Assembly: GCA_030647255.1 (NCBI GenBank)
Contig: JAUSJK010000053.1
Coordinates: 1-44,151 of the forward strand
Reading direction: 5' to 3'
Source: a bacterium
Lineage (GTDB): Bacteria > Patescibacteriota > Microgenomatia > UBA1406 > GWC2-37-13
Length of the DNA: 44,151 nucleotides
Positions 20,061 to 32,004 of this stretch are shown here, piece after piece. The translations under genes and the position numbers were made by a program. The notes beneath the pieces were generated by a model. The model was given only the letters and a program-made list of their open reading frames with translations, ran no database searches and was not told where the DNA came from. The first letter of the stretch is position 1; every line of letters begins with the position of its first letter.

Positions 20061-20744
20061 ATGCCTGGAAGAGAAATTCAGTTTTCTACTGACGAAATCT
20101 ATCATATCTTTACAAAAACATTAGATCATAAAAGTATTTTTAGAGACAATTCCTATCCTAATCTTTTTCTAAAAATTCTCCATTATTATCGATCGAGTGC
20201 GGTCACCGTTAGTTTTTCTGACTTTAAAAATTTACCAGAAGAAAATAAGATTCGTCTGCAAAAGAAAATTGATATGAGAAAGTATTTCCATATTGAAGTT
20301 CTTAGTTATTGTATAATGCCTACTCATTTCCACCTTCTTATAAGACAAGTGAGAGAAAAGGGCATTACTACCTGTATTTCAAATACACTCAACTCGTTCA
20401 CTCGAACTTACAATTTACTTTCCGAAAGAATGGGGCCAATTTTTCTTCGACCATTCAAATCGGTAGAGGTGAGAAGTAGAGAGCAATTTATCCATGTTTC
20501 CAGATATATTCATTTAAATCCATACTCTTCTTCTATTGTGAGTTCCTTTAATGAACTTCTTGAATATCCCTATTCATCAATAAAAACATATCTAAATACT
20601 ACTCTAAATCCACTCATATCAGATTCAGCGCTTTTACTGGGTGAGTTTCAAAACGATTGTAATAAATACAAAAATTTTCTGTTGGATAATGCCGATTATC
20701 AACAGCATTTGGAAAGATTAAAGTATCTCCAAAAATGGGAATAG
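20061..20744 (+). CDS. REP-associated tyrosine transposase (Y1_Tnp/RAYT)
   Basis: 227 aa. Single-stranded-DNA transposase of the HUH type: YHIFTKTLDHKSIF near the N-terminus, CIMPTHFHLLI (HUH metal site His-Phe-His) and SRYIHLNPYS with the catalytic Tyr. GPIFLRPFKSVEV links the two, as in RAYT and IS200-like proteins. It is flanked on both sides by the same REP palindrome (19956-19974 and 20778-20804), as expected when the enzyme recognises and moves these hairpins. The ATG follows a TTATAA-like stretch. The gene seems intact, inserted between the cmk-like gene and the proline operon. Confidence 0.9.
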   Translation: MPGREIQFSTDEIYHIFTKTLDHKSIFRDNSYPNLFLKILHYYRSSAVTVSFSDFKNLPEENKIRLQKKIDMRKYFHIEVLSYCIMPTHFHLLIRQVREKGITTCISNTLNSFTRTYNLLSERMGPIFLRPFKSVEVRSREQFIHVSRYIHLNPYSSSIVSSFNELLEYPYSSIKTYLNTTLNPLISDSALLLGEFQNDCNKYKNFLLDNADYQQHLERLKYLQKWE

Positions 20745-30538: not shown

Positions 30539-31048
30539 ATGGCAAAGCCTGGTTTTTGGTCAGATACATTTGAGCAACTCGCTGAACTGGGTAAAACTAC
30601 TGGGAAACAGTCAGCCAAGTCCGTCGCTCAGACATTTAATCCCGTCAAGATACTTGAGCAAGCCGCAGGTTCCACCGGCTCACCCAATGAAGGTGATCTG
30701 AAAAATGAATTTCAAAAGAAAAAGAATCATACTCCCATGGATTTTGATAAGCTTCAAAAAAAATACCAGGAAAAAGATACCCAAAATCTAGCGACGCTCA
30801 GGAACAGGCTTTTTCAGATGGTCAAAAGCGGAGATGAAAAAATCCTTGCTGAAAAAAAACAGGAGGAAGAAGAAATGAAACGAAAAATCTATTATGACGA
30901 AATGGAGAAAAAGAGAAGAAAACAAGCAACAGTTCAACAGCAATCGCAGTTCGCTCCTAAGGGTAAAGAAAAAAGAGGTTTATTCTCACCAAAGAAAAAA
31001 GCCCAAGCCCAACACGCGGAGACCAAACCCGCTACCGGGAAACAGTAA
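30539..31048 (+). CDS. hypothetical charged coiled-coil protein
   Basis: 169 aa, no recognised family. N-terminus mildly hydrophobic and Ala/Lys-rich, then a long Lys/Glu helix (about 60-135, EEEEMKRKIYYDEMEKKRRKQ) with strong coiled-coil character, and a basic, Pro/Gln-rich disordered tail. It has no signal peptide. It could be a structural or nucleic-acid-binding protein of this lineage. The 3' end overlaps the facing transposase gene by 17 nt. Confidence 0.6.
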   Translation: MAKPGFWSDTFEQLAELGKTTGKQSAKSVAQTFNPVKILEQAAGSTGSPNEGDLKNEFQKKKNHTPMDFDKLQKKYQEKDTQNLATLRNRLFQMVKSGDEKILAEKKQEEEEMKRKIYYDEMEKKRRKQATVQQQSQFAPKGKEKRGLFSPKKKAQAQHAETKPATGKQ

Positions 31049-31526
31049 CTTCTTTATTCTCTGGATCTATATCCCATTTGAGAGGATTCCAGCGTATATA
31101 TTCGCGGATTTTTTGAAGGGAGTATTCCGTACGGATGATATTGTCATAGAAAGATTTTTGCCACCTAAAATTTTGATTTAAGATCCTTATCTCCTTTGAC
31201 GAAAATGTTTTAAATCCTCTTATGACCTCAGATAATGAATATATATGTGTAGGGAACGGTTTTAAACCGTTCCCTACGTTTATCTTTATAATTCCATGTA
31301 AATGGTTTGGCATAATAATATATTCATCTAATTCTATTGGTACATAATGATGAGGCAGATCTACCCAATGTTTTTCTACTATTGTGCCAAAACTGTTTAA
31401 AACTACTTTTCTCCCGTCCATCTTCCCAAACCACTCCTTTCTATCTTTTGTACAAATGGTGATATAATAATATCCAGGTGTTTTATAATCGAATCCCTTC
31501 ATCCTATTTATCTTCCTTTCTCTCAT
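31032..31526 (-). CDS. REP-associated tyrosine transposase (RAYT), second family
   Basis: 164 aa from the ATG at 31526; the frame is open to 31580, but homology begins at RMKGFDYKTPGYYYITICT. HUH motif in IIMPNHLHGII (His-Leu-His), catalytic Tyr in IREYIRWNP, and FRWQKSFYDNIIR between them. Between the two motifs the protein reads NVGNGLKPFPT, encoded by a perfect REP palindrome (31249-31277). A second REP lies upstream (31587-31615). It is only distantly related to the RAYT at 20061 and uses a different REP. Apparently intact; it faces the hypothetical gene at 30539. Confidence 0.88.
   Translation of the reverse strand: MRERKINRMKGFDYKTPGYYYITICTKDRKEWFGKMDGRKVVLNSFGTIVEKHWVDLPHHYVPIELDEYIIMPNHLHGIIKINVGNGLKPFPTHIYSLSEVIRGFKTFSSKEIRILNQNFRWQKSFYDNIIRTEYSLQKIREYIRWNPLKWDIDPENKEVTVSR
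31249..31277. repeat. REP palindrome inside the RAYT 2 coding region
   Basis: A perfect 13-bp inverted repeat (GTAGGGAACGGTT / AACCGTTCCCTAC) around TTA, followed by GTTTA. It is read in frame as part of the transposase loop between its HUH and Tyr motifs. Confidence 0.9.
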
Positions 31527-31586
31527 TTTTTTATTATTGCACAGATATGAATGAACAGTATGGCATGATAAAATACACATATAATT

Positions 31587-31615
31587 GTAGGAAACGGTTT
31601 AAAACCGTTCCCTAC
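31587..31615. repeat. REP palindrome upstream of RAYT 2
   Basis: GTAGGAAACGGTTT / AAACCGTTCCCTAC, one mismatch in the stem (A for G), followed by GTTTA as in the internal copy. It lies between the transposase start and tRNA-Pro. Confidence 0.88.
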
Positions 31616-31631
31616 GTTTAAAAAAATAATA

Positions 31632-31705
31632 CGGGGTATAGTTCAGATGGCTAGAACACACGGTTCGGGACCGTGAGGTCGTCGGTTCAAGTCCGACTAC
31701 CCCGA
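31632..31705 (+). tRNA. tRNA-Pro (CGG)
   Basis: Acceptor CGGGGTA/TACCCCG, D arm GTTC/GAAC, anticodon stem CACGG/CCGTG with loop TTCGGGA (anticodon CGG), T stem GTCGG/CCGAC with loop TTCAAGT, discriminator A (31705). CCA is not encoded. Its anticodon pairs exactly with the proposed CCG specifier of the T-box at 20886-21124. Its 3' two thirds are repeated exactly at 31847-31897. Confidence 0.95.
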
Positions 31706-31709
31706 CATT

Positions 31710-31822
31710 AGAAAGCGTTTCCGAAGAATGAGGATTACGCTTTCTTATGCCTTCCCTTCATCGCTCTTCAACACGTCGAGCAAAAAGCAAAGAGTTAAGT
31801 GTTGAAGTAAGATGTGGAGGGC
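31710..31822 (+). ncRNA. paired hairpins after tRNA-Pro, copy A
   Basis: Hairpin 1: AGAAAGCGT (31710-31718)/ACGCTTTCT (31737-31745), loop containing CGAAGAATGAG. Hairpin 2: GCCTTCC (31749-31755)/GGAGGGC (31816-31822), ATC/GAT, a small internal loop, then CTTCAACAC/GTGTTGAAG (31766-31774/31799-31807). Copy B at 31904-32004 has different stem bases that still pair. No promoter is seen between the tRNA and the hairpins, so they are probably in the tRNA transcript. Function unknown. Confidence 0.6.
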
Positions 31823-31846
31823 TCATAGCATGACAGGCGGGTGGCG

Positions 31847-31897
31847 AGAACACACGGTTCGGGACCGTGAGGTCGTCGGTTCAAGTCCGACTACCCC
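31847..31897 (+). pseudogene. partial tRNA-Pro duplicate (5' part missing)
   Basis: 51 nt identical to 31653-31703 of tRNA-Pro, from the end of the D arm to the acceptor 3' strand. The 5' acceptor strand and D loop are replaced by a shorter unrelated segment that cannot form the acceptor stem or a D arm. It is probably not a functional tRNA, although the anticodon and T arms would fold. Confidence 0.8.
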
Positions 31898-31903
31898 AAC
31901 ACT

Positions 31904-32004
31904 AGAATCCGTTTTCGAAGAATGAGAAATTACGGATTCTTGTGTCCTCCGAATATCGCTCTTCGAGTCTCGCAAAGCGAGACGAGAAGGAAGATATGGA
32001 GGAC
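31904..32004 (+). ncRNA. paired hairpins after the tRNA-Pro duplicate, copy B
   Basis: Hairpin 1: AGAATCCGT (31904-31912)/ACGGATTCT (31932-31940), with the same CGAAGAATGAG loop. Hairpin 2: GTCCTCC (31944-31950)/GGAGGAC (31998-32004), ATATC/GATAT, internal loop, CTTC/GAAG, GTCTCGC/GCGAGAC with AAA loop. Followed by a run of seven A. Compared with copy A, stem positions change in pairs while loops and the internal-loop positions stay similar. Confidence 0.6.

Follow-up and report, generated by a model that had tools for sequence, protein, structure and literature searches.

Why does a tRNA-Pro(CGG) gene carry two hairpins directly behind it, and why does a copy of its 3' part further downstream carry two more of the same layout? 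In the window, that is, the whole stretch of 44,151 nucleotides analysed here, the functional tRNA-Pro(CGG) gene was located by ARAGORN and Rfam at 31632-31706 on the + strand. The first double hairpin begins straight behind the tRNA discriminator, with zero gap at the boundary between A31705 and C31706, and comprises a first hairpin, hp1, at 31706-31749 (+; CATTAGA...TCTTATG, with a U-U mismatch and a UU/AUU internal loop, defined by fold and covariation) and a second, hp2, at 31749-31822 (+; a class-wide conserved core with GGAGGGC at its end, defined by the covariance model R2 described below). It is followed by 19 nt (31823-31841) and then by a displaced tRNA-Pro 3' part at 31842-31899 (+), which has neither a 5' acceptor strand nor a D-arm and is non-functional; its Rfam score of 26.7 bits lies below the 29-bit cut-off and ARAGORN made no call. 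This second tRNA-Pro copy is a truncated remnant. Behind it stands a second double hairpin, with hp1 at 31900-31944 (+; CACTAGA...TCTTGTG, defined by fold) and hp2 at 31944-32004 (+; defined by fold and the covariance model R1), the latter with an apical hairpin unlike that of copy 1 and GGAGGAC at its end.

The first-pass annotation of this region had described the tRNA with two hairpins behind it, a 51-nt exact copy of the tRNA 3' part at a spacing of 194, and a second double hairpin behind that copy. All of these were recovered: the 51-nt block lies within an 85-nt direct repeat at the same spacing, and both double hairpins fold far below shuffled sequences (-44.9 vs -25.7 kcal/mol, z -5.5, for copy 1; -50.0 vs -25.4 kcal/mol, z -7.1, for copy 2). 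The compensatory stem pairs that were quoted are all found as written in the window sequence, and the inner hp1 stem is altered on both sides from copy 1 to copy 2 (CC/GG to TTTC/GAAA). The extent of the whole feature, 31632-32004, stands, the sole correction being that copy 1 itself spans 31706-31822. Rfam searches with the double hairpins gave chance-level matches only, the tRNA being the sole family match in the region, which agrees with the earlier statement that the hairpins resemble no recognised RNA class. Three guesses had been offered as to their nature: a tRNA-linked small RNA, a tRNA-targeting hairpin element, or the footprint of a hairpin-moving transposase.

A BLAST search with the 373-nt region in 57 relatives revealed the hairpins in other genomes, also away from tRNA-Pro. 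The covariance model R1 was built from 15 aligned copies with hand-picked boundaries. Within its alignment 92.6% of cells are paired and both sides have changed in 18 of the 31 pairs, a level of covariation that was reached by none of 500 shuffles; slid control structures were about 40% paired. R1 matches copy 1 at 31706-31822 with 127.7 bits and copy 2 at 31900-32004 with 93 bits. The model of hp2 alone, R2, has an alignment that is 93.8% paired, with both-side changes in 14 of 20 pairs, and matches hp2 of copy 1 at 31749-31822 with 72.4 bits (E 8.5e-16); the P1 stem of hp2 reads TCCNCC/GGNGGA. Unpaired bases of the double hairpin are also conserved. The foot of hp1 is NTAG (T in 96, A in 93 and G in 93 of 110 copies), with a variable first base, and most copies start with C|A or C|T. 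The covariation of R1 and of hp2 backs the earlier claim of selection on hairpin structure, and when relatives were searched with the covariance model, covarying copies recurred after tRNA genes and at other sites too.

Strong covariation, conserved unpaired bases and the position of copies in probably transcribed leaders or trailers would all be expected of a structured RNA (a tRNA trailer, a 3' or 5' UTR element or a small RNA) under selection for its fold, copies of which had arisen at several loci by duplication. The mismatches within the stems, however, argue otherwise. Pair columns of 103 distinct copies contain 72 G-T and 42 A-C mismatches, whereas the control, 101 tRNA acceptor stems at the same loci, contains 16 G-T and no A-C. 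Sense contexts give a G-T to A-C ratio of 29:15 and antisense contexts one of 27:14 (Fisher p = 1). Selection on RNA predicts opposite mismatch excesses in opposite orientations, and since none was seen, a DNA hairpin is favoured. The structural conservation is at the level of DNA, and the conserved fold is most readily understood as a hairpin formed by one particular strand of the DNA. Copies that stand antisense at tRNA, tmRNA, 16S, Shine-Dalgarno and -35 sites, together with the patchy copy number, the orthologous empty sites and the displaced gene ends described below, also count against a structured RNA, which we consider improbable. A tRNA-linked RNA or tRNA trailer in particular was rejected on the grounds of the orientation-independent G-T:A-C ratio and the non-tRNA sites; the guess of a tRNA-linked small RNA is not supported, given the number of those sites, the occurrence of both transcriptional orientations and the DNA-like mismatch spectrum.

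The copies are placed at gene boundaries, and the boundary is asymmetric. The hp1 side lies -3 to 0 nt from a tRNA or tmRNA end in 42 of 122 distinct copies, and the hp2 side of these 122 is never closer than 7 nt to such an end; Rfam confirms the exact abutment of the element to tmRNA and 5S. Sense copies are found at the 3' ends of genes for tRNA-Pro, -Met, -Cys, -Asp, -Gly, -Thr, -Trp, -Ile, -Leu, -Phe, -His, -Ser and -Gln, at 0-4 nt from the 3' end of 5S rRNA, and straight behind terminator T-tracts. Antisense copies are found at the 5' ends of tRNA-Ala, -Ser, -Leu, tmRNA and 16S rRNA genes, just 5' of Shine-Dalgarno sequences and 5' of -35 TTGACA boxes, the Shine-Dalgarno, -35 and terminator contexts being read by sequence pattern and by eye, with about one copy in ten left without an assigned context. 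In every listed context the gene-facing side is hp1. Nearest neighbours by hp1 share a context class in 72 of 102 cases vs 25 expected (maximum 42 in 1000 shuffles), and nearest neighbours by hp2 do so in 54 of 102. The only genes that recur beside copies are conserved housekeeping neighbours, such as smpB at tmRNA. The guess of a tRNA-targeting hairpin element is therefore right only in part, because tRNA ends are indeed targets but are one of several kinds of boundary that are targeted. Two genomes outside the host family have an antisense copy directly 5' of the 16S rRNA gene in which hp2 stands with an A/T-rich hp1 (loci L322 and L335).

At protein genes, the element stands behind the stop codon and the native gene end reappears after hp2. 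This was observed at genes named from our reading of their translations as gyrB (displaced end KSATLDI or KLATLDV, in four genomes), rpsG (NKAFAHFRW, with two displaced ends in series), secA (GSGKKYKKCHYPELPA) and rpmG (KRCKKHTEHKETDKLD), and at an unnamed gene (IPAEFFVTSF, in two genomes), each displaced end closing with a stop codon. The native end starts 0-2 nt past hp2 at gyrB, rpsG, secA and the IPAEFFVTSF gene. Wherever the two ends at one locus have their peptide in common, the differences between them are almost all synonymous, which argues that both ends are under coding selection and that the gene-proximal end was imported rather than duplicated in place. At gyrB, in four genomes, the spacer before hp2 pairs over 6-7 bp with its own imported codons (GTCAGC/GCTGAC, GTCCGCT/AGCGGAC, GTTAGC/GCTAAC and ATCGGC/GCCGAT) and these codons covary with it, whereas against the displaced native end, or against the other three genomes' ends, it pairs over no more than 3-4 bp. 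The rpsG spacer shows a 12-bp pairing, and at the IPAEFFVTSF gene (L159) the two ends hardly differ in this respect, 7 bp vs 6 bp. This pairing of spacer and codons indicates that hp1 is built partly of coding sequence that is inherited together with the element; gene end and element are co-inherited. A displaced end is retained in only 6 of 122 copies (family-centred set).

We conclude, at a probability of roughly 0.7, that the double hairpin represents a small piece of mobile DNA that caps genes, is non-autonomous and is moved in trans through its hairpins in single-stranded form. A recombinase encoded elsewhere would recognise the gene-proximal hp1 and the gene-distal hp2 as folded single strands of DNA, and precise insertion would place hp1 at the gene boundary and leave the gene undamaged. 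With an insertion point within a gene, the unit would bring along a gene end of its own, and the native one would remain behind hp2. The window locus looks like the tRNA counterpart of the event at protein genes: insertion at tRNA-Pro(CGG) would have produced, in order, the tRNA, element 1, the displaced 3' part and an older element 2. Transposition as a single strand is what we infer, and the proposed mechanism does not account for the exact stop at so many kinds of boundary.

Islands that target tRNA genes classically show a rebuilt gene end with the displaced native one behind it. The arrangement seen here could therefore be the scar of integrase-type islands at gene 3' ends, with the double hairpin as the attachment region after cargo loss, and relatives bear further 3' remnants at tRNA-Pro(CGG) (L014, L030 and L040), as islands might leave. 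Yet the native end lies 0-2 nt from the end of hp2 at four different genes, and such repeated junctions make random cargo loss an unlikely source. Only about two Xer-like integrases occur per genome, and islands would leave the -35, Shine-Dalgarno and terminator sites unexplained, so that we regard island scars as very unlikely. In these relatives displaced tRNA-Pro 3' fragments lie downstream of a complete tRNA-Pro(CGG), and two of the fragments begin close to the anticodon loop, after AGGCGGG; this suggests that tRNA-Pro(CGG) may also be an integration hotspot for other elements.

The capping element is repeated and patchily distributed. R1 has six matches in the window's own genome. Among Ca. 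Roizmanbacteria, the host family, copies occur in 43 of 72 genomes, at 1-14 per carrier; the remaining 29 have none, and copy number is very uneven within genera. Few R1 copies occur outside the family (8 of 380 genomes in a scan of the phylum, two of these being Ca. Roizmanbacteria), and the out-of-family copies have hp2 paired with other first hairpins. With R2, hp2 was found in 130 of 329 genomes of the class, in many families. The 27-nt core pattern had no match in viral contigs. A matching description of the double-hairpin element was not found among the open-licence papers searched; by that measure, the double hairpin is an unreported repeated element of about 90-140 nt that extends across a large group of uncultured bacteria. 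Two loci in the own genome, at tRNA-Trp (L054) and tRNA-Gly (L055), combine the usual hp1 with an unrelated hp2 (GAAGTGAATATTTCGACTGCGTGG...), which shows hp1 and hp2 to be exchangeable modules; the tRNA-Gly locus retains a displaced tRNA-Gly 3' end.

Orthologous sites without the element were found in congeners for two copies of G006 (L074, empty in G057 and G058, and L087, empty in G035) and for one copy of G035 (L076, empty in G057). No clear target-site duplication is present at the three empty sites, where the flanks are continuous; the right flank has no motif, and its similarity to the 5' arm of hp1 is not significant (p = 0.15). At the tRNA-Met locus of congeners, the element is present in some genomes, one has none, and in another two a different double hairpin occupies its position. 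Two loci with zero gap after tRNA-Met (L211 and L226) read CCAT[AG]TACC-AGA-stem-AC-GGTA[CT]ATGG and then [CT]CATGAA...TTCATG[AG], and these hairpins form a second family of double hairpins at gene ends. In several Roizmanbacteria, an insert of about 190 nt interrupts the tRNA-Met gene (L223, L226 and L139); it looks like a group I intron, with scores in L223 and L226 that miss the Rfam gathering score. Identical or near-identical copies within a genome are few, and recent transposition was therefore not caught in the act.

Copies at the same site across genomes are enriched, 17 vs 2 expected, which vertical inheritance or homing would fit at least as well as free transposition. This likeness beyond expectation, along with the presence of one hp1 type per context class and a hairpin that always faces the gene, would also suit DNA hairpins with a function for the host, for example in protein binding or as boundaries, and that owe their spread to gene conversion and to horizontally transferred gene ends, not to transposition. 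Such hairpins would not be expected to be missing from 29 of 72 family genomes or to vary so much within genera, and precise insertion with the displaced native end kept is unlike ordinary gene conversion. A host function of this kind is unlikely to be the explanation, and a mobile capping element remains our preferred reading.

Neither hairpin encodes protein, and no recombinase gene was found inside or regularly beside copies. The neighbour of the element in the window is a RAYT-like Y1 transposase gene at 31032-31580 on the - strand (PF01797, 24.3 bits, above the cut-off). This gene has its own GTAG-tagged perfect palindromes at 31249-31277 and 31587-31615 (GTAGG[GA]AACGGTTT...CCGTTCCCTAC), one within the coding sequence and translated, the other just upstream of tRNA-Pro. 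A second Y1_Tnp match in the window, at 20274-20513 (+), is weak (19.8 bits, below the cut-off). When 30 Y1 loci were searched with R1, no element ends were found, and other palindromes flank the Y1 genes. We rejected the neighbouring RAYT as parent because its palindromes are different and the element does not form the ends of any Y1 gene examined; a link between the element and this RAYT would be conjectural. The footprint of a hairpin-moving transposase came closest of the three guesses.

Across the 72 family genomes, the number of Y1_Tnp genes correlates with element copy number (Spearman 0.62, uncorrected for phylogeny and mobile-element load), and all 14 genomes with at least four copies have at least two Y1_Tnp genes. 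A PF01797 match is missing in five element-bearing genomes of the family; elsewhere in the class it is present in 17 of 20 element-rich genomes and missing in three. A Y1 (HUH) transposase of the RAYT/IS200 type is a possible, if somewhat doubtful, mobilising enzyme. Alternatively, a host Xer-type tyrosine recombinase might act on the hairpins in an integron-like manner; Xer-like recombinases number about two in nearly every genome. As they do so alike in carriers and non-carriers, a dedicated integrase was rejected. Reverse transcription was rejected as well: 11 of the 72 genomes have RVT_1, and the most element-rich (G006, G035, G057, G058 and G069) all lack it.

REP elements have a GTAG tag, and a Y1 enzyme cuts a single strand at C|T or C|A near their hairpin (PMC8266576, PMC3733652). 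Like REP, BIME and REPIN sequences, the element is a short non-coding palindrome, present many times per genome, often paired and with a mismatched hairpin kept, and the NTAG foot of hp1 and the C|A or C|T start resemble the GTAG foot and the TnpA-REP cut sites (PMC8266576). Unlike REPs and REPINs, it has no fixed GTAG (or CGTC), the first base of its foot being variable, and it consists of two unlike hairpins in fixed order that stand exactly at gene boundaries and carry gene ends. Furthermore, the Y1 genes here are flanked by other palindromes and some element-rich genomes have no Y1 gene. With non-autonomous derivatives of IS200/IS605 the element shares a hairpin at each end, a single-strand logic and the absence of target duplication (PMC6006769). 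It differs from them in having neither a fixed tetranucleotide target nor a linker between the left cleavage site and the hairpin, and no autonomous parent with the same ends was found.

Integron attC sites are sequence-variable, structure-conserved DNA hairpins that are read as folded single strands. The element is likewise variable in sequence and conserved in structure, but it has no RYYYAAC/GTTRRRY boxes and forms no cassette arrays, its copies being scattered, and no integron integrase was noticed among the approximately two Xer-like recombinases per genome. It resembles integrative elements and phages in tRNA or gene 3' ends in that the gene end is replaced and the native end left downstream, whereas its length of about 90-140 nt, its lack of an integrase and its presence also at gene 5' ends, Shine-Dalgarno sequences, -35 boxes and terminators set it apart. 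As it lacks defining features of each family tested, we place the element separately within non-autonomous palindromic mobile DNA, with a reasonable chance of its being a new kind.

A more specific proposal, to which we give somewhat less than even odds, is a new kind of mobile element of about 100 nt that is protein-free, with hp2 as the shared recognition hairpin and hp1 as an adaptor with arms matched to the host gene end. Such an element would spare essential genes by means of a replacement end, with codons doubling as a hairpin arm, and would be widespread in Microgenomates-type CPR. If this is true, a large proportion of CPR bacteria harbour a tiny DNA element, whether selfish or domesticated, and insertion damage in their gene-dense genomes is avoided through exact end-capping and re-supplied last codons of gyrB, rpsG, secA or rpmG. 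The element would then offer a concrete, testable case of hairpin-guided, gene-end-specific insertion of DNA and point to a further recombinase. It would also account for many of the 'conserved' intergenic hairpins and tRNA remnants that annotation would misread as RNA genes.
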